Source: Rhodothermia bacterium (GTDB lineage Bacteria; Bacteroidota; Rhodothermia; Rhodothermales; JAAAOL01). Taken from it: DNA of 55,504 bases. Position 1 is the stretch's first letter, and every line of letters starts with the position of its first letter. Below, piece after piece: positions 15,726 through 44,200 of the stretch. The notes below the pieces were generated by a model that saw only the letters and a list, made by a program, of their open reading frames with translations, was not told the DNA's origin and searched no databases. Location of the stretch: NCBI GenBank assembly GCA_030428385.1, contig JAUIDY010000028.1, positions 1 to 55,504 on the forward strand, given 5' to 3'. The translations under genes and the position numbers were made by a program.

Positions 15726-18700
15726 CTAGTGCATCAGCACCATTTGGCGGGTGGCTACCCCCTGGCCTGCCTGAAGCCGGTAAAAGTATACCCCGCTGGC
15801 CACTGCGACCCCGGCATCGTTCTGCCCATTCCACTCCACGGTATACGGCCCGGCTTCAACCTCCCGGTTCAGGAGTTGGCGCACCGGTTGACCAAGCGCG
15901 TTGTAGATGGTGAGTTCGACCGGCCCGGCCTCTGCCAACGAGAAGGGAATGGTGACCACACGACGTGCCGGGTTGGGGTAGCTGCGTCCCAGCGCAAAGG
16001 ATGGCGGTAGCTCCTCCTGCTTGTCACCGGAAAGAACCTGTTTATTCCCAGAGGCAGCCATGCACCCGGGCGTTGCGGGAAAGCAGGCAATGTGTCCTTC
16101 CACATATTGCCGAATCAAGGTCGCGTCTGCCTGCGTGACTTTTCCATCGCCATCCACATCGGCGGCGGCACGGGCCGCCGCACTGGAAAGATTCATGTTC
16201 AGCGTCGTTCGGGTCACCAGCGCGGCATCCGTGTAGGTCACGGCTAGGTCAAAATCCACATCGCCATAGCGAGGCACCACCTCCACCTCGGAGGCCTCGG
16301 CAGCGCCAGCCAGGGCTCCGGCATTGAGCACCAGCGCCTGGATACCTACCGGCGACACCCCCAGTTGCGTATTCCCGCGGAATCCAAGGTTTAGCAGCAC
16401 GCCTTCTGGCGAGGAGGAAGACGAGACTGCCAGGTGTCCCTCTACCTGAATCCGTCCCGGAGCCAGCAACACCCCGGTCGCTGTTTCACTTCGCGAGTCA
16501 TTCGTCTCTACCCCTACAAACGTCAACAAGGCGGGGTCGTAGTGTATTTCGAAGGCATACGACGTGACCTCTTTCAGGGCAGGGCTGACCACACGAAGGG
16601 GCACCGTAACTACGTCGTTGGGATTCACCCTGCCTGGTTGGACCAGCAGGAGGGTTTCATCCACCACCCGCACCACAAGGGGCAGGTAGTCACCGGGGAC
16701 ATCCTCATCCAGGGTCACCTCCAACCCTACGTCATAGGTGCCGGGCAACAACCCGTCAGGGTTAAATTGCAGGTGAATATCTGCGGCCTCGCCTGGTATC
16801 AGCGTGCCCTCTTGCACATCTACTGTCAGCACCTCCGTGGGCGCGGAAATCGACACCTCATCAATCTGCGCATAAAAATCGGTGGGGGCACGTTCCAGGC
16901 TAAAGTAGCGCCACCGCAGCCGAAAGCGGTCGCCCGCCTCCAGTTGGTTCACCAAGGGTATTTCAACCTGCACACCGGGTCCGGCAAAGGTATCGCCAAG
17001 GTCTTCGGCCCAGCGACGCACCGTACTCCACGTGACCCCATTATCGACGCTGAGGTCTAGGTTCAAAAACGCCCGGTTGGTGGCGGCGGTGATAAAGTTC
17101 GCCCGGAAGCGGAGGTTCAGATTCGCTGAGAACGCTGTTAGAAGGGGCGTGCGCAAGGTGGCGTCGAAGGGGGTGTTGGGGGCCGCGTGGCTACTAATCA
17201 TAGCAGCCTCTCCAGTACCCCCTGTGTAATTGGCATATCCCTGGGAAAAAGCACTATGACGCCGCCACCGCACCCCACTCCCCGCATGGTCTACCACAGA
17301 CCACGACGCCGGAATGCCCGCGTTGAAGTCTTCTTCCAGCAATGGCCCCATCACCCCGGCATCGAGCGTTCGGGTGTCGGGCGTAACCGTAAATGAAGTC
17401 GTGCGAGGACCGGTGTTGCGAAGGGTGACCGTTTGCTCTTGGGTATACCCCACCGCCGCATACAACTTCAGGGCATCGGGCTGCAGGTCGACCGTAGGTG
17501 GTGGGATTCCTTCGCCGCGCAACAGCACCGTCAGCACGGGATCGACCGGATCATTGCTTTCAATACGCAAGGTCTCGGCTACAGGCCCCACCACCAAGGG
17601 CTTAAACCAGAGGGGCACCACCCGCGCCGCGCCCGGTGGAATGGTGAGTGCTTCGACGGGCAAATCGCCCACCCCAAAAACAAAGGAATTAACGCGCAGC
17701 GCCACCTCCAGCACGTCGAATCCGGTGTTCTGGATAATCAGTTGCTCGGTGACCGAGGCCCCGATGGCCACCGAGCCGAATTGCTGCTCGGTTTGCCGGA
17801 GCGTGATGCGAGGGCTGCTTCGGACGGTGAAGGTAACCGGCACCGTAGCAGTGGGCCGCCCGGCTTGGTCAAAGGCCGCCACCTCCACCGCTGTCTCGTA
17901 GGTCCCGGCAAGCAAGTTACCCGCATCGAACGTCACCGGGACCTGCTGGCTTTCGCCGGGGCCGATGCGCCCGGTATGCACGTCGGGTGTCAGGAAGGAG
18001 CCACTGGGCAAGGCCAGGTATCCCAGGTGCGTGCCAGCAGGAAACATCGACACCACCGTGGTGGCGGCGGTGGCGGGGTCAACCACCCGAAACGCGCCTT
18101 GCTGCCCGTCGGGCTGATAGGACGCCAGGTACAGCATTCCTGTGGCAGGGTCGTAATCCAAACCCTGGTCTCCGTTTGCATCAAAACCAATGGGGCCAAT
18201 GGCCACAACTTCGCCCGTGGTTTTATTAATCCGCAGCAGTTCATCTCTTTTGATGTCCAGCCCCACCATTTGCCCCATCGGATCAATCGCCAACGCCACC
18301 ACCGCCCGATCTCCGCCTCCAATCCCCCCTACTGCCGTTGCCTCACCAGTTGCCGGATCGACCGTATAAAGCGTGGAAATGTGGTTGTCATAAACGGTGC
18401 ATCCATACAACGACCCGTCGGTAGGATCGGCCGCCAACCCGGTCCAAACTTCACCGTTGTCGGCGGGCTGGGACGGGCCAACCACGGCACGCTGCCCGGT
18501 GGCGACATCTACCACCTGGAGTTGCGGTGGAGAAGAGGTGCGTTCGGGATGGGTGATGATGTAGAAGCGGGTGTCATCGCCATACAAAAAGTCACCGGCA
18601 AAACTCGGTGGCGACAGGGCCACAGGCTCCACGGTCTCGGCGTGGTCAAGCGCAAACCGCATAAACCGGGTGGGTTCGAGCAGGTTGGTGCTATAGGCCA

Positions 18701-19952
18701 CCAGCGCAGTTGCGTCTGTTCGCCGGGCCCGGGTGGCTGTGCCGCGGTCCTCTCGCTCGCGGGGAAGAAGCGGAGAAACGGCCCGGTTGCCCCGCACCTG
18801 CACCTGAAACGTTTGTGCCTGCACTGGGTCGTCATTAAAAAGGGTGAACGTGGTCGTCCCTTGCTGCCTGCGGACCAGCGAGAGGGCCAACGCACCGGGT
18901 TCGATCCGAAAAGGGAAGCCCCCCTGATTAACCGTAAGCTGGAGGGGCCATGCCACGACGGGCTGCGTGGGGCTCGACGTAGCCACGCGCAACGTATCAT
19001 GATACACCCCGGGAAGCACCCGCCGTGCATCCACGTGCAAGGTCACGGCTTGGGTCTGGGCGGGCTCCAGCCACCCAACGGACGGCTGCGCGGTGACATA
19101 TTCCGGCACGGGATCCCAACTGACAATGAGCGAATCGGTAAGAAAGGGCGTCTTGTCCGCCAGGGTGACCCCTTGCTGCCGAAAGTCATCTTGCAAGCCC
19201 ACCGTCCCCACCATCAGTTCCTCCGCAACGTCGCGGTAATAAAACCGAATGCGCCCGTCTTTGTAGAGGTGCACCTGAAAAACAAAAGTCCCACTCAGGG
19301 GCGTTGTGCCGGGCGGAAAAATGGTCGCTTCCAGTTCATACTGCACCACCAGGCGCTCGTGCGTGGCGTCGTGGTAGGTATACACCAGGCGGTTGTCGGG
19401 ATTAAACCGGTGCCACAGCGGCGCGATAAGGGCAGGCGGCGCCACGATGCTCGGTAACGAGGTGGGCACGTTAAACTGCCCCGACGTCCCGAACGTTAAA
19501 AATCCGTGCGGACTGATCCCGATGTTCTGGTACGTGACGCCGTAATAGAGAAACGGAAACGGGAGTACCTGCACCGCCACATCGTCACCGGGCACTGAGA
19601 CGGGCGTCCCCCGGTCGGCAATGTCGACCCAGACAAATGGCTCCGCCATTTCCCGACTATCGGTCCAGCTATAACCACTTCCGAGGGGACCTACGCCTTC
19701 TTGTGCCCCCCCCATTCCACGGATGCCAAACGCCACCCCTTCGGTCCCCGTGTTGGTCAGCGCAAGGGTTTGCGTGGCTTCGTCGCCTGCGACCAGCGCC
19801 ACTTGAAGAACGGGCGGTGTCACCTCCAGCGGGGTCCCCGTTTGCCCCTGCGTGGTGGGCACCCACATGACAGCGCTGCTTACCAACAGGCATAGAACGA
19901 CGCTCCATCGACGCAGTGATGTGCGACACGGTGCCTTTACCAAGAGCAGCAT
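15726..19952 (-). CDS. large T9SS cargo protein with cohesin-like and dockerin-like modules
   Basis: A secreted multidomain protein of 1408 residues from the ATG at 19952 (MLLLVKAPCRTSLRRWSVVL; signal ends near TTQGQ); a start at 20099 is open but buries the signal. Domains, numbered from 20099: an N-terminal beta region with YGVTYQNIGISPHGFLTFG; a propeller-like stretch around 510-720 (TLYTVDPATGEATAVGG repeats); choice-of-anchor-D/ASPM-like Ig domain near 770-880 (QQFGSVAIGASVTEQ); a jelly-roll near 930-1090 (LEEDFNAGIPASWSVVDHAG); a cohesin-like module about 1150-1270 (VTSYAFEIHYDPALLTFVGV); a dockerin-like pair about 1279-1345 (DVDFDLAVTYTDA and DVDGDGKVTQADATLI); and a type A sorting tail from about 1367 (SYPNPARR) to the end (QMVLMH). 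It should be exported by Sec and T9SS and bound or released at the surface. Its ligand is unknown. Confidence 0.9.
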   Translation of the reverse strand: MLLLVKAPCRTSLRRWSVVLCLLVSSAVMWVPTTQGQTGTPLEVTPPVLQVALVAGDEATQTLALTNTGTEGVAFGIRGMGGAQEGVGPLGSGYSWTDSREMAEPFVWVDIADRGTPVSVPGDDVAVQVLPFPFLYYGVTYQNIGISPHGFLTFGTSGQFNVPTSLPSIVAPPALIAPLWHRFNPDNRLVYTYHDATHERLVVQYELEATIFPPGTTPLSGTFVFQVHLYKDGRIRFYYRDVAEELMVGTVGLQDDFRQQGVTLADKTPFLTDSLIVSWDPVPEYVTAQPSVGWLEPAQTQAVTLHVDARRVLPGVYHDTLRVATSSPTQPVVAWPLQLTVNQGGFPFRIEPGALALSLVRRQQGTTTFTLFNDDPVQAQTFQVQVRGNRAVSPLLPREREDRGTATRARRTDATALVAYSTNLLEPTRFMRFALDHAETVEPVALSPPSFAGDFLYGDDTRFYIITHPERTSSPPQLQVVDVATGQRAVVGPSQPADNGEVWTGLAADPTDGSLYGCTVYDNHISTLYTVDPATGEATAVGGIGGGDRAVVALAIDPMGQMVGLDIKRDELLRINKTTGEVVAIGPIGFDANGDQGLDYDPATGMLYLASYQPDGQQGAFRVVDPATAATTVVSMFPAGTHLGYLALPSGSFLTPDVHTGRIGPGESQQVPVTFDAGNLLAGTYETAVEVAAFDQAGRPTATVPVTFTVRSSPRITLRQTEQQFGSVAIGASVTEQLIIQNTGFDVLEVALRVNSFVFGVGDLPVEALTIPPGAARVVPLWFKPLVVGPVAETLRIESNDPVDPVLTVLLRGEGIPPPTVDLQPDALKLYAAVGYTQEQTVTLRNTGPRTTSFTVTPDTRTLDAGVMGPLLEEDFNAGIPASWSVVDHAGSGVRWRRHSAFSQGYANYTGGTGEAAMISSHAAPNTPFDATLRTPLLTAFSANLNLRFRANFITAATNRAFLNLDLSVDNGVTWSTVRRWAEDLGDTFAGPGVQVEIPLVNQLEAGDRFRLRWRYFSLERAPTDFYAQIDEVSISAPTEVLTVDVQEGTLIPGEAADIHLQFNPDGLLPGTYDVGLEVTLDEDVPGDYLPLVVRVVDETLLLVQPGRVNPNDVVTVPLRVVSPALKEVTSYAFEIHYDPALLTFVGVETNDSRSETATGVLLAPGRIQVEGHLAVSSSSSPEGVLLNLGFRGNTQLGVSPVGIQALVLNAGALAGAAEASEVEVVPRYGDVDFDLAVTYTDAALVTRTTLNMNLSSAAARAAADVDGDGKVTQADATLIRQYVEGHIACFPATPGCMAASGNKQVLSGDKQEELPPSFALGRSYPNPARRVVTIPFSLAEAGPVELTIYNALGQPVRQLLNREVEAGPYTVEWNGQNDAGVAVASGVYFYRLQAGQGVATRQMVLMH

Positions 19953-20415
19953 ACCTTCTATACTAAACAAGCTATCGGGGGGCTTCAAGAGGCGGTCGCT
20001 GGAACCCCAATCAGGTAGCAGAGATCCCACCAGAGCAATACGTTCAAAAATAGAAAAAGACAGGATGACAGGGAATCCACCTGCGCCGTCGTGCGCCAAT
20101 CCGGGTACCCATTGAGAGGAGGTTATTCAAGGCTGCACCCTTGCCTTCCGCCTCCCTTCATGAACAGCCCAAGGCTACCGCAGCGTTTTGTTCTTGGCTC
20201 CTATCTCTGTGCATTAAAACCATACCGTTGGGCGTGTGCTTATTGCGTGTTCGCCCTTCCTGCCTCAAGAACCCCTGTTCTTTTGCGCCGTATGAACTGC
20301 CAACTTATACCGACGGGTATACCAACTCACAACATCCACCTTGCAGGGTAAAACCATGGCCCCTAGGTTGCGATGTTATCTATGCTTAGCCGTTAGGTTT
20401 CATCCGCACTCTTTT
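19953..20415. other. divergent intergenic region
   Basis: About 460 bp between the minus-strand T9SS cargo and the plus-strand DPP IV gene. It must hold both promoters. I see no clear promoter boxes, hairpins or repeats; short open frames here lack any family feature. Confidence 0.5.
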
Positions 20416-28283: not shown

Positions 28284-29342
28284 CTACCCCTTCACCCGGT
28301 TCAGTGCCATCGCCCGGAGCATCCAGTTGGGCAAGGACTGACCCATGGGCTTGCCGCGCAGGTTGAGGTACCAGCCGATCTTTTTGAGCACGGGCACGCG
28401 GTGCGTCTCCACAAACTCGATGAGCGTACCATCGGGGTCTTCGATATAGCTGAACCGCCCGGCGGCCTCGCCCATGTCGAACGAGTTGGCGCTATCGACG
28501 GTGAAGAGAAACCCGGCGTCTTCGCACGCGGCTTTTAGCGCGTCCATGCCCTGGATATCGAAGCACAGGTGGATGAACCCGATGTCACCCCAGAAGCGAT
28601 TTTCAAACAGCCGAACGGGCGTGCGGTCCAGCGCCTGCACCAATTCAAGCTGACTCGGCCCGAGCAGGTTGGCAAACGGCCCCTGAAACGGCTTGGAGCG
28701 CCCCAGCAACACGCGGCGATATACTTCGTCGCCCCCTGGCAGGTCGGCAAAATCCGCAAACGTGTCGGTTTCGTCGTAGATCACCGTGTCGTAGCCGAGA
28801 ATGTCGCTGTACAGCCGCCGCGCCTGCGTGATGCTTGACACGCCAATCATGCAACCACTCGGACCATTGGTCGCATGACTGCCTTTGGTGAACTGGTGTG
28901 TGCTGGGCACCACATCAAACGTCAGCCCCAGCGGATCGCGGATGTAAAAGTGCGGCTGCCCGGCGGGATCACGAAGCACCTGCACCGACACATCGAGCCC
29001 CGCCTGCAAGAACCGCTGGTGCACGGCCTCTACGTCGGCACAGCCGATCCGTACGATGGCAATGCCCAAATCACCGATGTGCATCGGCGCGGGGGAGGGC
29101 TCTGGCGTGCGGCTGGTGTACTGCCACACCTCAAACCCGCCGCCCCCTTGCATATTGAGCGCCAGCGTGGCGGTACGGCGCTGTACCTCGCCGCCCGTGT
29201 AGGGCGTCATCAGCGGGGCCTCGGCGGCGTCCTGAAAAATCGGCACGTCCATCCCAAACTGCCGCCGGTACCACGCCCATGCCCGGTCTACATCCGGCAC
29301 TCCGACGCCCACCTGTTGAATCCCTCCGATGAGATAGGTCAT
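28284..29342 (-). CDS. two-domain VOC (glyoxalase/dioxygenase fold) protein
   Basis: A 352-residue cytosolic protein made of two vicinal-oxygen-chelate domains. The first starts at GGIQQVGVGVPDVDRAWAWY and ends near DPLGLTFDVVPS; the second runs from about residue 160 (GCMIGVSSITQARRLYSDIL) to IEDPDGTLIEFVETH near 320. Candidate metal ligands are the His of FIHLCFDIQG and the Glu of LIEFVETH. A 30-residue tail follows. The tandem arrangement resembles extradiol dioxygenases and 4-hydroxyphenylpyruvate dioxygenase, but sequence alone does not give the substrate. It lies upstream of nothing obvious and is separated from the FAAL-fusion gene (same strand, upstream) by 227 bp holding repeats. Confidence 0.85.
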   Translation of the reverse strand: MTYLIGGIQQVGVGVPDVDRAWAWYRRQFGMDVPIFQDAAEAPLMTPYTGGEVQRRTATLALNMQGGGGFEVWQYTSRTPEPSPAPMHIGDLGIAIVRIGCADVEAVHQRFLQAGLDVSVQVLRDPAGQPHFYIRDPLGLTFDVVPSTHQFTKGSHATNGPSGCMIGVSSITQARRLYSDILGYDTVIYDETDTFADFADLPGGDEVYRRVLLGRSKPFQGPFANLLGPSQLELVQALDRTPVRLFENRFWGDIGFIHLCFDIQGMDALKAACEDAGFLFTVDSANSFDMGEAAGRFSYIEDPDGTLIEFVETHRVPVLKKIGWYLNLRGKPMGQSLPNWMLRAMALNRVKG

Positions 29343-29569: not shown

Positions 29570-32500
29570 TCACGCCCCTTTGGCCACCGTCGCCGCTACG
29601 CCGGAGCGGTCGCTCAGGTTGAGGCGGTCGCGGAGGGTTTGGAAGGCTTCGATGGTGCGGTCCACGTCGTCGTCGGTGTGGGCAGCGGTGGAGGTGAGGC
29701 GGAAGAGCATCACGCCGCGCGGCACGACGGGGTAGGTGACGGCAGAGGCAAAGATGCCGAGTTCTTCGCGCAGCATGCGGATGGCCTTCAGCACCGTCTG
29801 CTCGTCATCGGCGGGGAGGTACACGGGCGTAATCGGCGAGGCGGTGTTGCCAATGTTGAAGCCGAGGTCTTTGAGTTCGGTCTGCAACCGCCGGGCGATG
29901 TGCCACACCTGCTCGCGACGTTCCGGCTCGGCCTCAATCACGTCGAGCGCCGCACGGACCGCCTCGATGTATATCATCGGGAGGCTCTTGGCGAAGATGT
30001 TGGTGCGGGCGTTGTAGCGCACGTAGTCGATCACCCGCTCGTCGCCCGCGGTCACGCCGCCGATGGCCGCGAACGACTTGGCGAAGGTACCGAAATACAG
30101 ATCCAGCCGGTCTTGCACGCCCTGATGCTCGGCGGTGCCTGCGCCCGTCGGCCCCATCACGCCAAAGCCGTGGGCGTCGTCGACGAAGAGCCGTGCGCCG
30201 TATTTTTCCTTGAGGGCACAGATCTCCGGCAGCGGCGCGAGGTCGCCCGTCATGCCAAAGACACCTTCCGTCACCACAAGAATGCCGCCTTTGGTGCGTT
30301 TGCGGGCGGCTTGCAGTTGGCTTTCGAGACTTTCGAGGTCGTTGTGGCGGAAGACGCGGAACGGCTTGCCTGCTGCCGCCACCATCGCGCCATCAACGAT
30401 ACAGGCGTGCGAGAGACTGTCGATGATAACCGTGTCGTTGCCTTCGACGAGCGAGGCGATGGTGCCCATCACGCCCATGTAGCCGAAGTTCCACACCACC
30501 GACGCCTCTTTCTGGAGATACCGCGCCAGTTCGCGTTCGAGTTCGAAGTGCCGCTCGGTGGTGCCGGTCATCAGCCGCGAGCCCATCGGCGACCACGGGC
30601 CATGCTGTTCCAATGCCTTCCGCGCCTGCGACTGGATGCGTTCGTCGTGCGCGAGGCCGAGGTAGTTGTTGATGGACCAGACGATCACGTCGTGCCCCTG
30701 AAACTGCATGTGCGGCCCCACTGGCCCCGTCAGTTCGGGCTGGGTGAAGTAGCGGTCTTTTTGCAGCCGGTATTTACCGAAGTAGCCGCCATCGGTGTCG
30801 CACTTGTCAAACAGGTCGCCGCCTTCCACGTCTTCCTCCAGTTCGGCCTGATGCCCCGTCGCCAATTTCTGCGCGAGTTGGCCGATGGTGAGTTCGTTCA
30901 GCGCCTCGTCGGTCGGGACCATCACGCCCAGTTCCGACTCGATGGCGAGTTTAAGTTCGACGACATCGAGCGAGTCGAGCCCCAGCACCCCGAGCGCATC
31001 GTCGAGGCTGACGCGCGAGACCGGTAGTTTGAGCGAACGCGCCACCAGATACCGCAGGTGCTCGGCGATGTGGATCTGCCGGTCGATGGGCGAGAGCGTG
31101 TGCAGGTCTACCTGATCGATGGATGCCGTGTCGATGGTTTCCGATTCGACATTCGCAGAAAGCACGTCGCGGGCGACTTCATGCAGCTTGCCCGACAGCA
31201 GTCCCACGCGGCACGCCTTGCGCCGGATTTTGCCGCTGGACGTTTTGGGCAGGCTGCCCGTCTTCAGCAGCGCCACCGTGTGCACCTGCAGTTCGTGTTT
31301 CTCCGAAACGGCTCGCCGGATCGCGGCGATGATGCCGTCGGCGTCGAGGTCGCGCAGGGCGCTGCGTTTGACTTCATGCACCACGCCGAGCCGCTCTTCG
31401 CCGTCAACTTCAATGGCAAACGCCGCGCCCGCCTTGGGCACCAGCGCTGGGTGCGCCTCCGAAACGGTCGTCTCAATGTCTTGCGGGTAATGGTTGCGTC
31501 CGCGAATGATGATGAGATCCTTGAGGCGCCCGGTGACAAACAGCGCGTTGTCTTTGATGAAGCCGAGGTCGCCTGTGCGCAGCGCTGTCAGCGAAGGCGT
31601 TTCGGTGGAGGCCGCTGCGAAGGTGCGGGCGGTTTCTTCCGGATGTTTCCAGTAGCCCTGCGCCACGCTCTTACCCGAGATCCAGATCTCACCGACGCGC
31701 CCGGTGGGGCACGGCTCATGTGTATCCGGATCAACAATTTGCAGCTTCATGCCATCCCACGTCTGCCCGGCACTCACCAGCGCCCGCACCTCGCCACCGT
31801 TGGCCGGCAGCACGCGGTGTTTGGTCAGCGCCTCAGCATCCACCAGATCAATACGCGGCGCGTCGGGCTTGGGAATACCGGCAACGAATAGCGTCGCCTC
31901 GGCGAGGCCATAGCATGGCACGAACGATTCGCGGCGGAAGCCGTAAGGCGCAAAAGCGTTGGTGAAAGCATCCAGCGTTTCGGCCCGAACGGGCTCGGCG
32001 CCATTAAACGCCACGTCCCATGATGATAGGTCGAGTCCTTCGCATTGCTCCGGCGTAATCTTGCGGGCGCACAGCGCATAGGCGAAGTCGGGCCCACCGC
32101 TAATGGTGGCGCGGTGCTCCGAGATGGCTTTTAACCACCGCACCGGCTTCTGCAAAAACGCTACGGGGGCCATCAGCACACACGGCATCCCGGCATAAAG
32201 CGGCTGCAACACCGTCCCGATCAGGCCCATGTCGTGATACATCGGCAGCCAGCCCAGCACCTTGGCGTCGGCGTGTGTCTGGAACGCCGACTGAATGAGC
32301 GACTCGTTGTGCAGCAGGTTGGCATGGCTTACCATGACGCCCTTCGGCGTGCCGGTCGAGCCCGAGGTGTATTGCAAAAACGCCAGCGTCTCGCCGTCAA
32401 TGGCGGGCGACTGCCACGCGTCAGCGTGGGCCACGTTGAGCGTATCGGTGGGAATCTGATGCAACACACCCAGTTCGGCATGTTCGGCGAAATGCCGCTC

Positions 32501-32896
32501 CATCATGTCGAGGATGGGCTGCGTTGAAAGCACGACGGTGGCCTGCGCGTCGGCCACAATGCTGTCGACCCGCTCCAACGAGCGGTTGCGGCGGGGCGGA
32601 TAGGCGGGCACGGCGATGACGCCTGCATACAGGCATCCGAAAAACGCCGCGATGTAGTCGAGTCCCGATGGATAGAGGAGTAACGCCCGGTGCCCGGCAA
32701 CACCCCGGTCTTGCAGGTGGGCCGCAATGGCACGCGCTTTTTGGTCAAGTTGGGCATAGGTAAAGGTGTCCCCTTCTACTTCCCCATCAATCAAAAACGT
32801 GTACGCGAGGCGGTCGGGTTGTTGGGTAGCACGGAAGCGGAGCAGATCGACCAACGTCGCATGAGATGCCTCAGGCATGGAGTCTGGTGTGCGCAT
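29570..32896 (-). CDS. FAAL-ACP-AONS fusion (acyl-AMP ligase, acyl carrier, PLP alpha-oxoamine synthase)
   Basis: One 1108-residue chain with three catalytic parts. Residues about 1-575 are a fatty acyl-AMP ligase: VPAYPPRRNRS, LQYTSGSTGTPKG near 170, GWLPMYHDMGLIG and VTGRLKDLIIIRGRNHYPQD. Residues about 600-680 are an acyl carrier domain with the phosphopantetheine site S642 in GVLGLDSLDVVEL. Residues about 700-1100 are an alpha-oxoamine synthase (serine palmitoyltransferase/KAPA synthase family): NNYLGLAHD, MGSRLMTGTT, FVDDAHGFGVMG and PLP-binding K940 in FGTFAKSFAAIGG. The plain reading is that a fatty acid is adenylated, loaded on the carrier and condensed with an amino acid, losing CO2 to give a long-chain 2-amino-3-ketone. 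That would start sphingolipid- or sulfonolipid-like synthesis. Which amino acid is used cannot be read. Confidence 0.92.
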   Translation of the reverse strand: MRTPDSMPEASHATLVDLLRFRATQQPDRLAYTFLIDGEVEGDTFTYAQLDQKARAIAAHLQDRGVAGHRALLLYPSGLDYIAAFFGCLYAGVIAVPAYPPRRNRSLERVDSIVADAQATVVLSTQPILDMMERHFAEHAELGVLHQIPTDTLNVAHADAWQSPAIDGETLAFLQYTSGSTGTPKGVMVSHANLLHNESLIQSAFQTHADAKVLGWLPMYHDMGLIGTVLQPLYAGMPCVLMAPVAFLQKPVRWLKAISEHRATISGGPDFAYALCARKITPEQCEGLDLSSWDVAFNGAEPVRAETLDAFTNAFAPYGFRRESFVPCYGLAEATLFVAGIPKPDAPRIDLVDAEALTKHRVLPANGGEVRALVSAGQTWDGMKLQIVDPDTHEPCPTGRVGEIWISGKSVAQGYWKHPEETARTFAAASTETPSLTALRTGDLGFIKDNALFVTGRLKDLIIIRGRNHYPQDIETTVSEAHPALVPKAGAAFAIEVDGEERLGVVHEVKRSALRDLDADGIIAAIRRAVSEKHELQVHTVALLKTGSLPKTSSGKIRRKACRVGLLSGKLHEVARDVLSANVESETIDTASIDQVDLHTLSPIDRQIHIAEHLRYLVARSLKLPVSRVSLDDALGVLGLDSLDVVELKLAIESELGVMVPTDEALNELTIGQLAQKLATGHQAELEEDVEGGDLFDKCDTDGGYFGKYRLQKDRYFTQPELTGPVGPHMQFQGHDVIVWSINNYLGLAHDERIQSQARKALEQHGPWSPMGSRLMTGTTERHFELERELARYLQKEASVVWNFGYMGVMGTIASLVEGNDTVIIDSLSHACIVDGAMVAAAGKPFRVFRHNDLESLESQLQAARKRTKGGILVVTEGVFGMTGDLAPLPEICALKEKYGARLFVDDAHGFGVMGPTGAGTAEHQGVQDRLDLYFGTFAKSFAAIGGVTAGDERVIDYVRYNARTNIFAKSLPMIYIEAVRAALDVIEAEPERREQVWHIARRLQTELKDLGFNIGNTASPITPVYLPADDEQTVLKAIRMLREELGIFASAVTYPVVPRGVMLFRLTSTAAHTDDDVDRTIEAFQTLRDRLNLSDRSGVAATVAKGA

Positions 32897-33340: not shown

Positions 33341-35008
33341 ATGCTTTCTCGCCGTGCGGCCTGGTTGCTGTTGGTGCCCGTCTTGCTGGTGCTGGTCGGG
33401 TATGTGCTGTTTCCGAGCCTGCAAACGTTTGTGTTGGGCATCGGGGGGGGCGACTGGGGCGATCTGTTTGCCTCGCCACGCGCCGTGAATGCGCGGGCGC
33501 TGACGAATTCGGTACTGGTGTCGCTGTACACGGTGGTGGGAGCCGGAATTCTGGGCACCTCGCTGGCGTATTGCCTGTTTCGGTTCGACCTGCCGCTACG
33601 ACGGGTGATGATGGCACTGGCGGCATTCCCGCTGGCGCTGCCGCCGCTCGTGGGCGTGCTGGCGTTTGCCTTTCTCTATGGCGAGAGCGGCATCCTGCCC
33701 CGTGGCCTGCAAATGCTGCTTGGCCTTGACGATGTGCCGTTTTCGTTTCGCGGCCTCGGGGCGGTGTGGCTGGTGCATGTCTACTCGCTCTATGTCTACT
33801 TCTACCTGTTCGTCCTCGCGGCACTTCGCGGCGTAGACCGCAGCCTGCTCGAAGCATCCGCCGACCTCGGGGCGTCGGGGTGGACGACGTTTCGGCGAGT
33901 GGTGCTGCCGCTGCTGCGCCCGGCACTCATCAGCGCGGCGCTGCTAGTGTTTATGGTGTCGATGGCGTCGTTTACGGCCCCGCTCCTCTTCGCCGACACC
34001 GAGCCGTTCCTCACGGTGCAGATCTTCAACTACAAGCGCAACGGCAACCTCGCGCTGTCGGCGGCGGTGTCTACGCTGCTCACCGTCATCTGCCTCGTCT
34101 TCCTGATTCTGATCGAGTGGGGCAACCGCAAGCAGGGCGGCGGCGCGGCAAAAGGCGCTTCGGCTCCGCCCCTGCCCGTGCAAAAAGGCTGGCAACGCGC
34201 CCTCGCGGGCTTTGGCGTGGTGAGCCTGCTGGTGTTTCTGGTGCTGCCCATCGCTACAGTGCTGCTGATTTCGTTTGCGCAAGAGGGAAGCTGGACAACG
34301 CAGATCATGCCGAGCCGGTACACCTTTGGCAACTACGCGGCCCTCCTCAGCGACCCCGACGTGTTCGCGCCCATCGCCAACAGCCTGCGCATGGCGGGAC
34401 TGGCAACGGTGGCGAACGTGATCTTCGGCGTGGCGGCGGCGCTCGTCATCGTCAAAACGAAACTCCCCGGACGCGGCTTGGTGCGGCTGCTGGCCGTGCT
34501 GCCGTTTGCCATCCCCGGCACCGTCATCGCCGTCAACCTGATTGTTACGTTCAACGAGCCCAGCGCGTGGTCGGGCGGACAGATTCTCGTCGGCACGTTC
34601 TGGATCTTGCCGTTGGCGTATTTTGTGCGGCACATCCCCTTCGTTGTGCGTGCCACGATGGCCTCGCTGGAGCGCTACGACGACCGCCTCACCGAAGCCT
34701 CCGCTGACCTCGGCGCACCGTACCGCGTCACGTTTCGCCGCATCGTGCTCCCGCTCATCATGCCCGGCATCGTAGCGGGGACGCTGCTCACGTTTGTCAC
34801 CGCCCTCGGCGAGTTTGTGTCCTCCATCCTGCTCTACGTCTACAGCAACCGCCCCATCAGCGTCGAGATCTGGTCACAACTCTCCCGCGAGTTTAACTTC
34901 GGCGAAGCAGCGGCCTACAGCGTCTTTTTGATGATTTTGATAATGGCGTCGGCGCTCGTCGTGCGGCGGCTGGGCGTTGAGGGAAGTGGGAAGAGGTTGG
35001 GGGGATGA
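33341..35008 (+). CDS. ABC transporter permease, iron(III) FbpB type
   Basis: A 555-residue inner-membrane permease made of two fused BPD-type halves, as in the FbpB/SfuB ferric-iron importers. Each half has about six spans and an EAA loop that docks to the ATPase: EASADLGASGWTTFRRVVLP near residue 174 and EASADLGAPYRVTFRRIVLP near residue 453. A hydrophilic joint (NRKQGGGAAKGASAPPLPVQ) separates the halves. The periplasmic binding protein and ATPase expected beside it are both absent here, so the permease must work with parts encoded elsewhere. Ferric iron is the family's usual cargo, but putrescine or thiamine-type importers share this fold. A GA-rich tract overlaps its last codons and 3-prime end. 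Confidence 0.9.
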   Translation: MLSRRAAWLLLVPVLLVLVGYVLFPSLQTFVLGIGGGDWGDLFASPRAVNARALTNSVLVSLYTVVGAGILGTSLAYCLFRFDLPLRRVMMALAAFPLALPPLVGVLAFAFLYGESGILPRGLQMLLGLDDVPFSFRGLGAVWLVHVYSLYVYFYLFVLAALRGVDRSLLEASADLGASGWTTFRRVVLPLLRPALISAALLVFMVSMASFTAPLLFADTEPFLTVQIFNYKRNGNLALSAAVSTLLTVICLVFLILIEWGNRKQGGGAAKGASAPPLPVQKGWQRALAGFGVVSLLVFLVLPIATVLLISFAQEGSWTTQIMPSRYTFGNYAALLSDPDVFAPIANSLRMAGLATVANVIFGVAAALVIVKTKLPGRGLVRLLAVLPFAIPGTVIAVNLIVTFNEPSAWSGGQILVGTFWILPLAYFVRHIPFVVRATMASLERYDDRLTEASADLGAPYRVTFRRIVLPLIMPGIVAGTLLTFVTALGEFVSSILLYVYSNRPISVEIWSQLSREFNFGEAAAYSVFLMILIMASALVVRRLGVEGSGKRLGG

Positions 35009-35060
35009 GGGTTTGGGAGTGGGAGAGGTTGGGAGTATGAGGGTGTGGATGAAAGGGAAA
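34978..35060 (+). repeat. GA-rich heptamer-like tract after ABC permease
   Basis: Units near TTGGGAG, TGGGAGAGG and TGAGGGTG recur irregularly. The tract starts within the last permease codons, whose product ends EGSGKRLGG. Confidence 0.55.
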
Positions 35061-35122
35061 ATTGTCGCAGGTCTGTCAAGTCAGCGGTCACAGGTCGTTG
35101 GAATCAGGCGACATAGCCAATC

Positions 35123-35190
35123 CATGACACGGACGAAGTCCGTAAATGACAACCCTTAACACAGGCGGAGCCTGTACCTGACGCGCAGCA
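35123..35190. repeat. two short hairpin repeats
   Basis: GGAC-gaa-GTCC followed by GTAAATGAC, and ACAGGC-gga-GCCTGT followed by ACCTGACGC. Same design (3-base purine loop, TGAC spacer) as the array before pyrC at 22870-23095. Confidence 0.6.
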
Positions 35191-35304
35191 AGTGATCCGA
35201 TCAATTTAGCCGAGGCTTTGCACGAAATTCGCCAGAGGCATCGTATCTTGGTGAATTCGGATTGACTGCATAGTTTTGCGTTTTGCTGGCCTAGCTTTTT
35301 ACCC

Positions 35305-36480
35305 ATGAAGATAACCGTGATCGGGGCCGGGGCAATGGGCTCCGCTGTTACCCTCGACTTGCTCGACCGCGAAGAAGTCACCCGCGTGCAGGTCTGCGAT
35401 GCCCGTGCCAAGTCGCTCCAGGAACTACACGAAATCGTCCAGAACCCGCGCCTGGGCTCGTTTCAGGTGGATGCCCGCGACCCCGGCGTGCTCGAACCCA
35501 TCATCGCCGGAAGCGACTGCGTGGTGGGCTGTACGGTCCCGCAGCTTTATCCCACAATCGCCACGCTGTGCCTCAAGCTCGGCATCGGCTACTGCGACCT
35601 CGGCAGCACCGAAACGGTGGTCAACAAGCTGCTGTCGCTGAACGAAGAAGCCCAGAAAAAGGCAGTGTGGATCATCCCGAACGCCGGACTGGCACCGGGC
35701 CTCGTCAACATCCTCTGCGTGCACGGCATCGCCCAGTTCGACGACGTGGCCTCTGCCCACATCCGCGTCGGCGACGTGCCGTTGCATCCTCAGCCTCCGT
35801 TTAACTTCCGCATCGCGTGGTCGGCCGACAAGCTCATCGACGACTACACGCAGCCGGTGTACTTCATTGAAAACGGTGCCCTCAGCGAGACTTCGGCGCT
35901 GGACCATGTGGAGCAGTTGTGCTTCCCGGAGCCGTTCGGCGCGATGGAGGCGTTCAGCACCGCCGGAGCCCTGTCCACGCTGGCACACAACCTGGCCGGG
36001 CGCATCAACTTCCTAGACCACAAAACCATCCGCTGGCCGGGACACGCCGCGCAGATGCAGTTTCTGCTCGAACTGGGCTTCGGTGAGCCACGCAGCATCG
36101 ACGTGCGCACACACCTGACGTACCGCGACATCCTTGTGCGCCGCATGCGCCAGCGCCTCGGCGGCCACTTCGTCGACGCCGTGCTGATGCGGGTGCTGCT
36201 GCACGGCACCGTCGACGGGCAGGCGCGCACGCTGGTCTACGAGATGGTAGAAACCTACGACGACGCCCGCGACCTGACCGCCATCAAGCGTTGCACCAGC
36301 ATCCCTGCCGCCAGTGTCGCTGTCCTCATCGCCAGCAAGCAACTCCCCGGCGGCGGCGCGGCCCCGCCTGAGTCCGTCGTCTCGAACGACCTGTTCATCG
36401 CCACCATGATCGAGCGCGGCCTGCACATCAAAACAGCGTGGCACGACGGGCATGTAGGCATCGGCGCGGGGGAGTGCTAA
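35305..36480 (+). CDS. saccharopine dehydrogenase-like oxidoreductase
   Basis: A 391-residue NAD(P)-dependent enzyme of the saccharopine dehydrogenase/lysine 6-dehydrogenase group. The dinucleotide-binding loop is GAGAMGSAVTLDLL at the very N-terminus (MKITVIGAGAMGS), with VCDARAKS as the strand end that selects the cofactor. VGCTVPQLYPTIATLC and GIGYCDLGST follow, then the catalytic-domain signature IIPNAGLAPGLVNILCVHG. The family works on lysine, saccharopine or carboxynorspermidine; which of these applies is not decided by the sequence. The stop is 3 bp from the end of the convergent SDR gene, with no room for a terminator between them. Confidence 0.9.
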   Translation: MKITVIGAGAMGSAVTLDLLDREEVTRVQVCDARAKSLQELHEIVQNPRLGSFQVDARDPGVLEPIIAGSDCVVGCTVPQLYPTIATLCLKLGIGYCDLGSTETVVNKLLSLNEEAQKKAVWIIPNAGLAPGLVNILCVHGIAQFDDVASAHIRVGDVPLHPQPPFNFRIAWSADKLIDDYTQPVYFIENGALSETSALDHVEQLCFPEPFGAMEAFSTAGALSTLAHNLAGRINFLDHKTIRWPGHAAQMQFLLELGFGEPRSIDVRTHLTYRDILVRRMRQRLGGHFVDAVLMRVLLHGTVDGQARTLVYEMVETYDDARDLTAIKRCTSIPAASVAVLIASKQLPGGGAAPPESVVSNDLFIATMIERGLHIKTAWHDGHVGIGAGEC

Positions 36481-36483
36481 AGA

Positions 36484-37155
36484 CTACCGCATTGTCCCAT
36501 ACGCCCGGATCGTTGCGCCGTTGACGGCAGCGCCCAACTCACTGCACAGCGTTTGGGTGAGCGCCACCAGATCGTCGGCGGGGACGCCTTTGTCGGACGT
36601 GTCGCCGAAGAGAATCATCGACGGCGCGAGGATGTGGGCCGTGATGCCTGCGTCGGCGTATTCCTCGGTGACGGCCTCGGCGAGGCGGAGCACCCCGGCT
36701 TTGGACGCGGAATAGGCGGCCTGCTGGCTGCGCCCTCGGTCCACGCCCTGACCCGCGCCAATCAGCACGATGCGTCCGCCGCCGTCTTGCATGTGGCGCA
36801 CGGCCTCGCGGGTGCACAAAAACGCCGAGGTCAGGTTGATAGTCATCACCTTCTGCCAGTCGGCGAGCGTGGTTTCCAGCAGCGGGCGTCCGTCCCACAT
36901 GCCCACCGTATGCACCAGCGCGTCCACCCGCCCCACCTGCGCCGCGATCTGCGCAAACGCGTCGGCGACGGCGGCTTCATCGGAGAGGTCGGCGAGGAAT
37001 GGTTGCACGCGGTCATGCACGGGAATGCCCCGGTCGGAGCGGTTGACGGCGGCGACCGTCGCCCCGGCTTCGATGAAGCCATGAACCAGCCGTTGTCCCA
37101 GCCGCCCTCCGGCGCCAGTGATGACGATATTTTTTCCTTCAAACATGGTGCTCAT
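36484..37155 (-). CDS. short-chain dehydrogenase/reductase (SDR)
   Basis: A classical SDR of about 223 residues: Rossmann loop TGAGGRLGQRL, NRSDRG at the cofactor-selecting strand end, HTVGMWDGRP, NLTSAFLCTREAV, the Ser-bearing strand RIVLIGAGQG and the catalytic YSASK in QAAYSASKAGVLRLAEAVTE. The usual catalytic Ser position holds Gly/Ala (LIGAGQG), so activity may be altered. The ATG at 37155 or 37146 (MFEGKNIVITG) is right; the open frame continues upstream to 37356 only because it reads through an intergenic repeat that yields an Arg/Glu-rich peptide. Substrate unknown. Confidence 0.9.
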   Translation of the reverse strand: MSTMFEGKNIVITGAGGRLGQRLVHGFIEAGATVAAVNRSDRGIPVHDRVQPFLADLSDEAAVADAFAQIAAQVGRVDALVHTVGMWDGRPLLETTLADWQKVMTINLTSAFLCTREAVRHMQDGGGRIVLIGAGQGVDRGRSQQAAYSASKAGVLRLAEAVTEEYADAGITAHILAPSMILFGDTSDKGVPADDLVALTQTLCSELGAAVNGATIRAYGTMR

Positions 37156-37220
37156 CATTGATTCAGGTTGAAGTGTAGTAAAAGCGAACTTGGTAGTACA
37201 AGGAATACGCATTCTACTGC

Positions 37221-37326
37221 GTTCCCTCTCCCTTGATGGGAGAGGGTCAGGGTGAGGGTGAAAAACAGACAACTTTTCCAACGTCTCCCCCTCACGCTGT
37301 CTCTCTCCCGCGAGGGGAGAGAGGAC
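37221..37326. repeat. CCTCTCCC/GGGAGAGG intergenic repeat
   Basis: CCCTCTCCCTTGATGGGAGA with GGGTGAGGGTG, then an inverted partner CCCCCTCACGCTGTCTCTCT ending CGAGGGGAGAG. I recognise this as a very common intergenic repeat type whose translation gives PLPSRERE-like peptides. Confidence 0.7.
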
Positions 37327-37375
37327 GTGTACAGATGCGTCATGGCGAAATACCAACCGACAGCTTAAGCCCCGT

Positions 37376-37849: not shown

Positions 37850-38231
37850 GATTTTAAGGTTTAATAAAAGCTTCGCGGTTGGTGAACAAAACCCACGGGC
37901 TTGTGTACCAGCGTCCCTTCGACGAACACAGGGTGGGGCCACCGCAAGGGTGTCCCTTTATTTTGCTCTTGAAGCGGAGCGCGCGGCGCAGTACCGTACA
38001 AGGAGAAGGTACAATTAATTCGGCTCCCTTTCGACGCCATCCATCAGATCGGTTAACGAAAACAAGATTCGCGTATCGGCACCTCTCGCTACCAATCCGT
38101 TTCAAGGCGCTTTGCTGACCAAACCCACGGCGTACCGTGCGTTGACCAACCCCAGCCCCGTCGCCTGATGCGTGCCCCAACCCCCGTGTAGTACAGAATA
38201 TCCCGTGCGATCCCGCCACGCTCCGAGCCGT
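37850..38231. other. divergent region upstream of sprA
   Basis: Should hold the promoters of the NTF2-like lipoprotein (minus) and sprA (plus). I see no clear promoter boxes, hairpin with T-run or known repeat in it. Composition is less GC-rich than the flanking genes between about 37960 and 38070. Confidence 0.45.
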
Positions 38232-41200
38232 ATGTTTGATCCGGTGCGTTCCCACGCTACCCGCCCCCTCCATACCCTGTTGCTGCTGTTCAGCGGGGCG
38301 CTGCTGCTAGCGCTCGTGCTGATCAACAGCGCCGCCCGTGGCAGCCATCCCACCCCCGGCCTGATTCAGCGCTATATTGCTCCCAGCGACACCGACAGCG
38401 TCGCCGTGGACCCCGACGATGCCCTGCTCCTCCAGGGACCGCCCCCCAGCGCCCCCACACCCGCCGATGTGCTGGCCACCATCGCCGACACGACGCAGGC
38501 CGACTCGCTACTGTCCGACTCCACCCTCGCTGACACGCTGGCCGCCGACACCACCTGGCGCGCCCGCTACTACCTGCGCACGCGCCGCGACCGCCCTGCG
38601 GCCTCGCTCTTCCCCCGCCAGCGTTCGCCTTTTTCGACCGAGTTGGGTCCCTACTGGCAACACCGGCTGACACAAGATTCGACGGGCGCGTTTGTGGCCC
38701 GCGAGCAGGTGGGCGATGAAGACGTGCGGGTTCCGGTGCGGGTGGATGCCGACACCTATGCCGAGGAGCGCATGCGGGTGGGCGTCCGGCGCAACTGGGA
38801 ATCGCTCATTGCCCAGCAGGCCCAACTGCGCGAGCAGCAGCGCCAGCGCGGCGCGGGCCTCGGCGTGAACATCGCTGTGCCGGGCGGGCGGCAAACCGCA
38901 TTCTCCACCATCTTCGGCGAGCCGACGGTGGACCTGCGCGTCACCGGGCAGGCCGACATCCGCGCAGGCTTCGACTACCGCAAGAGCGACCAGCAGGCCC
39001 TCCTCACCGGCAACGCCAGCCAGGTGGACCCCGACTTTAAACAGGACCTCCGCCTCGGCGTCACCGGGCGCATCGGTGACAAGATGCGCGTGGACGTGAA
39101 CTGGGACACCAACCGCGACTTCGACTACCAGAACCAGCTCAAGCTGCAATACACCGGCTACGACGACGAAATCCTGCAAAATGTGGAGGCGGGCAACGTG
39201 TTTCTCAACACGCCCTCTACCCTGATCCGTGGCGGGCAGAGCCTGTTTGGCATCAAGAGCGAGTTTAAGGTGGGTGGCGTGCGCCTGACGACCGTGGCGA
39301 GTACGCAGAAAGGGCAGTCGAGCAGCCTCTCGCTGGACGGCGGAGCCGAAGCCACCGAGTTCGAGAAACGCCCCACGCAGTACGACCGCCGCAAACACTT
39401 CTTCCTGGGCTACTACTTCCGCAACCGCTGGGAAGACGCCCACCTGACCAACCTCGAAAACATCACCCTGTTCGACGGCTTCAACCGCGTCGCCGAGGTG
39501 GAGGTGTGGAAGCTGGTCAACAACACCGGGACCGAAGGCAACGAAAACGAGCGGCAGGTCATCGCGATGGTGGACCTCGGCGAGCCCCCCGAACTGCTGG
39601 AACAGGCCGACAGCTTCACGCTCCCGCGCCTACCCAGTAACACCATCGACCAGTACTCCGACGCCGACATCGACCAGATCCTGGTGCCCAACGCGGGCGA
39701 CTTCAAAAACTTCCTCGAAGGCGGCAGCCTGCCCGTCCCGCTGACCGGCTCCGACTACCAGCAAAGCTCCTTCCGCAAGCTGCAACGCGGCGTGGATTAT
39801 GACCTGGACGAACGCCTCGGCTACATTACGCTGCGCCACACGCTGAACGAAAGCGAGGCGCTGGCCGTGGCGTACCGCATCGAAACCGACGCGGGCATCT
39901 TCACGGTGGGCGACCTGAACCTGACCGGGGGCGGCAACAACAGCCAGACCAGCGACCGGCTCGTCCTGAAGCTCCTCCGCCCGACGAACCTGCCGCAGCC
40001 GACGGAGAATTTTAACCCGGCAGCGTGGTACCTCGAACTGCGCAACATCTACCAGCTTTCGTCGAGCCTGAAGCCCACGGACCTCGAAGTCCGCATCGAA
40101 TACCAGCCGCCGGGCCAGCGGTCGACGGAAAAAGTCGCCGACATCAGCGGGCAGCAAACCCTGCTTCAGGCCCTCGGCCTTGACCTTGCCAACGAGCAGG
40201 GAGCGCCCAGCCCGGACGACCAGATCGACCAGTTCTTCATCGACTTCAGCAACGGCTTCCTCATCTTTCCCTACCTCGAACCGTTTGGCAGCCGCATCCG
40301 CGAACTGGTGGGCGATAACCAGGAGCGCATCGACCAGTATGTGTACGACGAGGTGTATACACAGAAGGTGAGCAACGCCGAACTCGTCAAGGAATTGGAT
40401 GTGTACCGCATCACCGGCTCGTTTAAGGGCGCGGTGGCCGATTTCTACGACCTGCGGGCCTATTCCGGCCTCGTGCCCGGCTCCGTGCGCGTCACCTCGG
40501 GCGGCACGCCGCTGGTGGAAGGCACCGACTTCGTGGTTAACTACGAAGGCGGCACACTTACCATCACCAACCCGTCGTACCTCACCTCCGGGCGCGACAT
40601 CGAGATTGAATACGAGCAGAACGCGCTCTTCCAACTCCAGACCAAAACGCTGCTCGGGGCCCGCCTCGATTATGAACTCGACGAACGCCTCGGCATGGGC
40701 GCGACGGTGATGCGCCTCAGCCAGCAGTCGGCTAGCGACAAGTTCCGCCTCGGCGAGGAGCCTATCGCCAACACCATCTGGGGCGTTGACGGCAAGCTGG
40801 ACCTGGAGCCGCGCTGGCTCACCCGCGTCGTGGATGCGCTGCCGCTGCTGCAAACCCGCGCGCCGAGTAGCCTCTCCATCACCGGCGAATTTGCGCAACT
40901 GCGGCCGGGCCACACCCAGACCACCGCCTTCGACCGCGCCCGCGACAACCTGCGTGACGCCGGGCGCGACTTCTCATCCGACGAACTAGGCGGGATCTCG
41001 TACATCGACGACTTCGAGGGCTTCGAGAACACCTACACGCTGATGCAGCCCGGCGCGTGGCGGCTCAGTGCACCACCGGCGTTCCTGCCCGTCGTGGACG
41101 GCGACCCGACCACCAACGGTGCCGACCGCGATTCGCTGCGGACCAACTGGCGTGGCACGATGGCGTGGTACAGCCTGAACCAGGGCAGCATCGAAACCCT

Positions 41201-44200
41201 CGACCAGCAGGGCGTCAATTTCACCTACGACCCGCTGCTCCGCCCCGACGAGGTCTTCCGCAACCGCCCGCCCGACGAGCAGGTGCGCACGCTCCAGACC
41301 CTCGACCTCTACTACACCCCTCACGAGCGCGGACCGTACAACTACAACACCCGCCTTGATGACTTCCTAGCAAGCCCGGAGCAATCGTGGGGCGGCATCA
41401 TCCAGCGGCTGCCGGAAAACTACAGCGACTTCAGCCTGCAAAACATCGAGTTTCTGGAGTTTGTCTTCCAGGTGGTGGACGACGACATCGACCCCGATGC
41501 CAAGCTGTATGTGGACCTCGGCGTGATCTCCGAAGAAATCATCCCCGATAACGCCCTGAACCAGGAAGACGGCCTCGCCTTTGGGGAACAGACGCCCCTA
41601 AACCAGACCGTGGACTGGGCGCGGCTGTCGACCACCAACCGCAACGACATCATCAACATCGACGAGGACTCGCGGCGGACGGAAGATGTGGGGCTCGACG
41701 GGTTTGCCTCGTACCCGAACAACGAGTTTGACCCTACCGTCACCGAGCAGAACCATTTTCAGGCGTACCTGAACGCGCTGCAAAACCAGAACCGCGCCCA
41801 GTTGACCGCCGAGCAGCAGCGCTTCCTCGACCGCGAAATCGCCAAGGCCCAGGCCGACCCGTCGGGCGACGACTTCCACTTCTTCGGCGACAACGAGTAC
41901 TTCTCCAACGGATCGTTTTATCCCAACGGCACCACCGTTCAGGACCGCCACACGCGGTACTTCCCGGGGATGGAGTTGAACACCATTGAGGCCCAGAGCC
42001 GGCTTGGGAGCGCCAACGATCGCCGGGGCAACTCGCGCACGCCCGACACCGAAGACCTCAACCTGAACATCTCCATCGACTCGAACAACCGCTACTTCGA
42101 GTACGCGCTGTCGTTGCACCCCGACTCCCTCCAGGACGACGCCCGCCCCGAAAACATCAACGACTTTGTGGTGGAGCAAATCAGCCAGACCGACGATGGC
42201 GCGTGGTACCTGGGTCGTATCCCCGTACAGCAGTTTTCCCAACAGATTGGCGGCGTCGAGGACTTTAGCCAGATCGAGTCCATCCGCCTCTGGACGATGG
42301 GCCACAGCAAACCCGTCACGCTGCGCTTTGCCTCGCTCGAACTCGTGGGGAGCCAGTGGCGCGCCTCGCAGGATGTGGCCGAGGAAGACCTTGGCCTCTC
42401 GCCCGGCCCCGACCCCATCGACCCGGACGACGACGAGCCGCCGATGGTGCCCGACGATGTCCGTCTGAGCGTCTCCAGCATCAACAACTTCGAAAGCACC
42501 ATTTACCGCGTGCCGCCGGGCGCCATCGTGAGCCAGATCCGTAGCGTAACCAGCGGCGAAGCCCGCAGCGCCCGCGAGCAAGCCCTCGTCCTCCGCGCCG
42601 AGAACCTGCGCCCCGGCCAGCAACGTGCCGTCTTCCGCACGTACCAGGGCCTCGACCTGCTCAAGTATTCCAACCTGCGCATGTTCACCCACTTCGACGG
42701 GGTGTTGGGTGACGGACGCAAGCTCGAAGAACTCGCGTCGCTGGAAGAAGCCCGCAGCAAGGCGCGGCTGTTTATCCGCCTCGGGGCCAACGAGGTAACC
42801 GACTATTACGAATACGAACAGCCCCTCACGCCCAGTTCACCACTTTCGGGCAACCCCGACTCGCTGTGGCAAGTCTTTGTCCAACCGGCAGGAGCGTCAA
42901 ATCCCATTGACCTCGGTTCGATGAACATCGAACTGGGCACGTTTAACCAGCTTAAGTTTTTCCGCGACGAAAACCTCGGCGAGTTGCCGCCCGACGTGGT
43001 GCTGTGGAGCAACGACCCCATCGCCGCCTCCAGCGGGCTCGACTCGCTCGTGCAGACGTTTGCCCCACCCGGCTCGCGGGTGGGGATCAAAGGCACGCCG
43101 TCGCTGGGGCGCGTGAATGCCATCGTCATCGGGATCCGCAACCCCGACGGCTCCGAGAGCATCCTCGAAGACGTGACGTTGTGGGTGAACGAACTCCGTG
43201 CGACGGGCTACGACGAGCGCAAAGGCTACGCCGCCCTCCTCAACGCCGACCTCGCCCTGGCCGACGTGGCGCGGATCAAGGCCAACTTCCGCACCCAGTC
43301 CGATGGCTTCGGCTCGCTGGCGAGTACGCTGGACGACCGCGACCAGCGCGACACGCAGGATTGGTCCGTTAACACCCAGTTCAGCCTGCACAAGTTTATC
43401 CCCGAGCGTTTCGGCTGGCAGATTCCCATTAGCTTCGAGGTGAAGTCGAGCACCACCACGCCCCGCTTCGATCCCAACCGGGGCGACGTGCGCGTGGAAG
43501 AACTGCTAACTGCCATCGATGCCTCGGACCTGGAACAGTCTGAGAAAGAGATCCGCAAGGACGAGATTGTTGAAGCCTCGCAGACCCACACCACGACCCG
43601 CTCGTTCACGGGGCGCGTGCAGAAACGCGGCTCCCGGTCTCGGCTGCTGCGCAACACCGTCGACGGCGTTTCCTTTAACTACTCGTACAGCGAAGCCAGC
43701 GGACGGACGCCGCGCCTGCACACCAACGACTCGTGGCGCTGGACCTCCACGCTGGGCTACCGGCTGGCGGTGCGGCGGCCCCGCACCGTGCGCCCCTTTG
43801 GCTTCCTCGGCGACGTGCCTGTGGTGGGCGTGCTCGGCGGCCTGCGATTTAACTACCTGCCGCAGTCGCTCAACTTCACCGCATCGGCCAACCGCCGCTA
43901 CTCCATCAGCCAGGAGCGCGTCGATCCGACCCGCCAGGGCAACAGCGGCCTGCCCGAACTCGTCGAGTTTGACCTGCGCGATACCCAGGCGTTTGGGCAC
44001 AACCGCCGGTTTACGATCCAGTACGAGCCGTTTAACTTCCTCAACCTCAGCTTCGACACCAACACCGACCAGAGCCTCGACGCGCTGGGCGTGGATACAC
44101 TATTTACTGTGATCCGCGTGGACAGCCTCGGAGTAGAGGACATCCTGTGGCTAGAAGATCCCAGCCGCGATCTTGACGACGCCTTCAGCGATGGACTGAT

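Follow-up and report, generated by a model that had tools for sequence, protein, structure and literature searches.

One gene of a Rhodothermia bacterium encodes a fatty acyl-AMP ligase (FAAL), an acyl carrier (ACP) domain, and an alpha-oxoamine synthase (AOS) in a single chain. With a probability of roughly two in three, this is a condensing enzyme of the cysteate-C-fatty acyltransferase (CFAT) type that loads its own acyl substrate and would catalyze the first committed step of sulfonolipid (capnine-type) synthesis. This reading is based on the observed domain order, the intact motifs, the clade of the condensing domain, a diagnostic lysine, and gene linkage. To our knowledge, the sulfonolipid pathway is only partly known. 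Sulfonolipids are outer-membrane lipids of Bacteroidota, one of which triggers rosette development in choanoflagellates (PMC3463246).

Architecture of the fusion protein

The open reading frame (positions 29570-32896 of the window, i.e., of the whole stretch of 55,504 nucleotides analyzed) lies on the minus strand, with its ATG at 32896 and its stop at 29570, and encodes 1108 amino acids without an internal stop. Pfam recognizes in it, in this order, AMP-binding (residues 22-416, 1e-73), AMP-dom_DIP2-like (460-564), PP-binding (614-676, 1.1e-10), and Aminotran_1_2 (736-1085, 9e-48), in agreement with the three-in-one FAAL, carrier, and AOS chain described in an earlier, sequence-only reading of this DNA. 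The same chain is encoded in genomes G179 (72% identity over the whole chain) and G250 (61%), the former being assembled as one contig. Since these and other genomes of the order carry it, the fusion is neither a chance frame nor an assembly chimera, and it is confirmed as a real, conserved protein.

The ligase domain extends over residues 12-572 (31181-32863, minus strand). Its best solved matches are FAALs (7r7e with 626 bits and 3kxw with 511 bits, then FadD23 and FadD32), and the FAAL NCBIfam models match it as well. ANL motifs and FAAL-type sequence are present, and the alignment with 7r7e, a FAAL loading domain, runs through residues 340-380, the site of the FAAL-specific insertion. By similarity, the N-terminal domain is, thus, predicted to be a FAAL rather than an acyl-CoA ligase.

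The three active-site motifs, previously reported as intact, are all found in the chain. The ATP-binding P-loop YTSGSTGTPKGV (residues 176-187; 32336-32371, minus strand) is conserved, save for one T/S exchange. The carrier domain (residues 614-676; 30869-31057, minus strand) contains S642 (30971-30973, minus strand), the phosphopantetheine attachment serine in G-(L/M)-D-S-L-D, which is invariant in the alignment, and the genome encodes a phosphopantetheinyl transferase (PPTase). In the condensing domain, K940 (30077-30079, minus strand) is the PLP Schiff-base lysine, aligned with K251 of SulA. The P-loop (with its one T/S exchange), S642, and K940 are all kept in the three full-length relatives that were first aligned.

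A survey of the order, as recommended by the sequence-only reading, was carried out with a profile built from the window protein and its counterparts in G179 and G250. It located the fusion in 8 of the 114 genomes (G000, G306, G309, G311, G314, G315, G250, and G179), which belong to four families (f1, f9, f11, and f51); in G306, the gene is split across two contigs. With eight genomes in four families, there is no support for a ‘species-specific’ step, as had tentatively been suggested for the envelope lipid. Only three of the 296 genomes in an even sample of the phylum have a full-length match, all from this order, and no relative was found in the viral contigs searched.

The condensing domain groups with cysteate acyltransferases

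The AOS domain (residues 694-1096; 29609-30817, minus strand) scores 418-419 bits with the CFAT structure 28eh and 371-373 bits with SulA (7u7h), versus 257-260 bits with the best serine palmitoyltransferase (SPT, 3a2b). A tree of 47 AOS sequences was built, including 25 stand-alone CFAT-type rows with both solved CFATs. The fusion clade is sister to these 25 rows, the joint clade being supported at 100/100, and a long branch separates it from SPT and KBL/BioF. As judged from sequence, the AOS domain, thus, belongs with the cysteate acyltransferase clade, apart from both of the other groups.

Residue-level features point the same way. K970 (29987-29989, minus strand) is equivalent to SulA K281, the lysine that separates cysteate acyltransferases from SPT (where an alanine is found), and it is kept in all seven fusions examined. 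N743, H830, D906, H909, K940, and R1066, corresponding to SulA N53, H140, D217, H220, K251, and R376, are conserved, and both the CFAT-only insertion PMG(A/S)R and the AKSLP motif are present. Compared with the known enzymes (SulA of Alistipes finegoldii, Alfi_1224, PDB 7u7h; and PDB 28eh), the fusion shares the AOS fold, the clade, the PLP lysine, the K281 equivalent, and the insertion, as well as an expected acyl-ACP donor and, in some genomes, VOC and SDR partners. It differs by having its own FAAL and ACP attached, and by four pocket residues (W768, S773, M807, and S1069) that are unlike those of the sampled CFATs. The capnine/sulfonolipid type, one of the suggestions of the earlier reading, is favored by the clade, by the diagnostic lysine, and by the position of the fusion in a gene group where a stand-alone CFAT is otherwise found.

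The host possesses a second AOS (G000:C222; L040:6771-8072, minus strand), which is of the SPT type, with 420 bits to 3a2b, 248 bits to 28eh, and an alanine at the SulA 281 position. The SPT and CFAT-type roles would, hence, be split between two enzymes. With this separate SPT, sphingolipids may also be made by the host.

The VOC partner and the gene neighborhood

The next gene downstream of the fusion, after a gap of 227 bp, encodes a double-VOC (glyoxalase fold) protein of 352 amino acids, as identified by Pfam (28284-29342, minus strand), and a putative metalloprotein. This gene was not mentioned in the earlier reading of the fusion. Among the 114 genomes of the order, a full-length VOC orthologue occurs in exactly the eight that carry the fusion, and it adjoins the fusion in 8/8 (in G179, an FA_hydroxylase gene lies between the two). 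In a phylum sample of 198 genomes, the VOC gene is present in 33, and each of the 31 among them that are devoid of the fusion possesses a stand-alone CFAT-type AOS, compared with a background of about 36% of genomes, these co-occurrence figures being uncorrected for shared ancestry. The VOC partner is, on these grounds, an apparently unreported candidate gene of the sulfonolipid pathway.

A first structural model of the VOC protein, built from 8 sequences, was set aside (pLDDT 49), while an AlphaFold2 model based on 30 sequences reached a pLDDT of 93. It has a double VOC fold, with Z scores of about 19-25 over 255-275 residues to a PcpA-type dioxygenase (4huz), Bacillus proteins (1zsw and 3oaj), maize glyoxalase I, and GLOD4, although identity to the glyoxalase I and PcpA types is only 10-17% and the VOC partner is distinguished by its genomic linkage to CFAT-type enzymes. 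Across the 30 sequences, the four residues Q10 (H once), E71, H258, and E309 show conservation, while the equivalent second site does not. Human glyoxalase I binds its metal through a Q/E/H/E set, and such a set in the VOC protein would suggest isomerase or epimerase activity more than that of a dioxygenase.

Short-chain dehydrogenase (SDR) genes complete the group in some genomes. SDR, CFAT, and VOC genes overlap as one operon in G064 and G158, whereas in G309 and G311 the fusion gene is followed by VOC and then by SDR; the linked SDRs of the two pairs share 44-51% identity. The fusion, thus, takes the place of the CFAT in a conserved gene group. Enzymes of the 3-ketocapnine reductase type have been described (PMC11211663), and the linked SDR is a natural candidate for this activity. 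The host orthologue (C105, 58% identity) is unlinked to the fusion, and the family is broad, being found in 39 of the 114 genomes. The SDR encoded in the window itself (36484-37356) was considered as the ketoreductase and rejected, as it has only 23-30% identity to the linked SDRs and the orthologue lies elsewhere (C105).

The TIGR03844-type cysteate synthase was also considered as a pathway marker. It is above the cut-off in 13 of the 114 genomes of the order, none of which has the fusion, and it is equally missing from the 16 CFAT genomes examined. Its absence is uninformative, since CFAT-carrying genomes lack it as well, and the marker was dropped. No gene was identified for an N-acyltransferase step of the fusion pathway.

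Elsewhere in the window, ABC permease and saccharopine-dehydrogenase-like genes (33341-36480, plus strand) are transcribed divergently from the fusion and keep their synteny in G179. A 2693-residue open reading frame with an SprA_N domain (type IX secretion/gliding channel) lies at 38172-46253 (plus strand), and a 1457-residue protein with dockerin, cohesin, and HYDIN-like Ig domains is encoded at 15726-20099 (minus strand).

Proposed pathway

The domains, their order, and their motifs support the self-loading route to an amino ketone put forward in the sequence-only reading; the catalytic steps, the amino acid, the acyl chain, and the role of the VOC protein are what we infer from them. The FAAL domain would adenylate a free long-chain fatty acid and hand the acyl group to the phosphopantetheine carried by S642. 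An amino acid, most likely L-cysteate, would form an external aldimine in the PLP domain at the C-terminus (K940), and condensation of this aldimine with the tethered acyl thioester would release CO2 and yield a long-chain 2-amino-3-ketone (3-ketocapnine, whose C16 form has a reported m/z of 362.2; PMC9304779). The ketone would then be reduced by a short-chain dehydrogenase, such as the one encoded beside the VOC gene in two fusion genomes (and unlinked in the host), and one of the pathway's intermediates would be the substrate of the VOC protein. SulA takes acyl-ACP and uses acyl-CoA poorly (SulA paper), and the attached ACP, hence, fits the CFAT-type AOS of the fusion.

More tentatively, with odds somewhat short of even, the fusion and the VOC gene may define an unreported sulfonolipid branch, in which a sulfonated amino ketone (or, given the pocket, a new amino-acid variant) is fed covalently by free fatty acids, and not by the acyl-ACP pool of the FAS. 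The double-VOC protein would then be an unrecognised metal-dependent pathway enzyme (e.g., an amino-ketone isomerase or epimerase), shared with bacteria that have a stand-alone CFAT. Under the favored reading, the one-chain, self-loading enzyme would be a compact source of 3-ketocapnine-type lipids, and the ligase-ACP-condensing enzyme logic of bacterial sphingolipid synthesis would also be built into the sulfonolipid branch. The linked VOC gene offers a concrete candidate for a missing step of the pathway.

Substrate pocket and alternative explanations

All seven fusions examined carry W768, S773, M807, and S or A at 1069, whereas position 768 is occupied by A, G, S, or F in the sampled CFATs, and 25/25 of them have A at 773, Q at 807, and P at 1069, the last three being residues common to the sampled CFATs that no source makes family-defining. 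S773 is the SPT residue, and M807 is as in the host SPT. According to the SulA paper, alanines enlarge the pocket of SulA for cysteate. In an alignment-based comparison of the amino-acid pocket, of which the earlier reading had recommended a structural version, the CFAT lysine and the catalytic residues are kept, and four positions are unlike the sampled CFATs. The pocket of the fusion may differ from that of CFATs, and because of these four positions its amino acid is one that we infer, not one that is established.

These same residues, together with the stem branch of the fusion clade (0.45 changes per column in the AOS tree), would fit an enzyme of CFAT ancestry and identical logic that has exchanged cysteate for a smaller or otherwise different substrate (glycine, alanine, serine, or another amino acid) and makes a different long-chain amino ketone. 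Such a switch is unlikely, though it deserves serious attention, as K970 and the other CFAT signatures are kept, stand-alone CFATs occur with these VOC and SDR genes too, and the host already has an SPT. That last point weighs as well on a fused SPT for sphingolipids, i.e., a one-chain version of a system known from Rhodobacteria, where a dedicated ligase, ACP, and SPT, as separate proteins, give 3-oxo-sphinganine (PMC9386255). While the FAAL-ACP-AOS proteins of other phyla do carry an SPT2-like AOS, the AOS of the fusion lies outside the SPT clade, carries a lysine where SPT has an alanine (SulA position 281), and remains under the SPT NCBIfam cut-offs (321 of 640 and 309 of 500), which makes this SPT-like alternative improbable; of the lipid types raised in the earlier reading, the sulfonolipid one is retained instead.

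A small secondary-metabolite synthase, whose product would be an amino ketone like those of lipopeptides or prodiginines and not a structural lipid, is suggested by the FAAL domain, which is nearest to PKS/NRPS loading domains, and by the A-CP-AOS layouts found in a survey of NRPS/PKS proteins (PMC3870968). This is quite improbable for a protein conserved in four families with a VOC neighbor, and with an SDR or FA hydroxylase in some, and neither the window nor the other loci inspected showed a PKS/NRPS gene beside the fusion. Finally, membership of the same superfamily (323.7 bits with the bioF model) would be compatible with a KAPA synthase (biotin) or a glycine C-acetyltransferase fused to a loader. 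The KAPA-type activity, which the sequence-only reading had named as evidence that would overturn it, is disfavored: the AOS is under the curated cut-offs (426.45 for bioF and 460 for glycine C-acetyltransferase) and outside the KBL/BioF clade, and no biotin gene is present among the classified neighbors in the window, so that the odds of this explanation are minute.

Related systems

The domain layout as such was known before and is not unique, contrary to what the earlier reading had implied. A-CP-AOS proteins were catalogued in 2013 in the NRPS/PKS survey, with no function assigned (PMC3870968, Table 2), and the A-CP-PLP2 (AOS) proteins A1ZVW4 (Microscilla marina) and A3ZWL3 (Blastopirellula marina), known from that listing, have the same domain order as the fusion. 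The AasR-AcpR-SPT trio of Caulobacter (CC_1165, CC_1163, and SPT; PMC9386255) resembles the fusion in that a dedicated ligase activates a free fatty acid for a dedicated ACP and an AOS, but it consists of separate proteins, with a serine/SPT-type AOS, and serves sphingolipids. In the open-access literature (subscription papers were mostly outside the scope), no description was found of a CFAT-type fusion or of a link between VOC proteins and sulfonolipids, both of which appear to be new. The Streptomyces griseoviridis protein B6VRQ8 is a more elaborate case, which resembles the prodiginine enzyme RedL and acts in pigment biosynthesis. Like the fusion, it couples acyl activation to a final AOS condensation, but its A-CP-KS-AT-AOS architecture (PMC3870968) includes PKS extension domains.

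A genome scan revealed FAAL-ACP-AOS proteins, or split versions of them, in Nostoc (L041), a Pseudanabaenales cyanobacterium (L042), Botrimarina (L043), a Nitrospirae MAG (L048), and a Gemmatimonadaceae MAG (L091), so that layouts with an SPT2-like AOS occur in four other phyla. The domain order is that of the fusion, but their AOS domains have about 30% identity to the one in the window, group with human SPTLC2 in an SPT2-related clade of their own, and do not have the CFAT lysine (K970). The layout, thus, exists with at least two AOS lineages, and since these fall in separate clades of the tree, the whole chain is unlikely to have arisen only once. In the FAAL tree, the Nitrospirae fusion adjoins the clade of the window protein (95/92) and the other fusions fall elsewhere, a placement compatible with either one or several origins of the FAAL-ACP part.

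An SDR-like gene lies near both cyanobacterial loci (L041 and L042). The Gemmatimonadaceae fusion with its SPT2-like AOS (L091:507-3896) is near a gene (L091:5526-6503) whose product resembles, at its N-terminus, the protein encoded beside the host SPT (L040:5613-6749); neither has a Pfam or NCBIfam match, and the former is possibly a sphingolipid N-acyltransferase. In the cyanobacterium Scytonema tolypothrichoides (L080:7965-15830), genes for a separate FAAL, a short carrier-sized open reading frame, a methyltransferase-like protein, an AOS, and an SDR stand in a row, as a putative amino-ketone lipid cluster.
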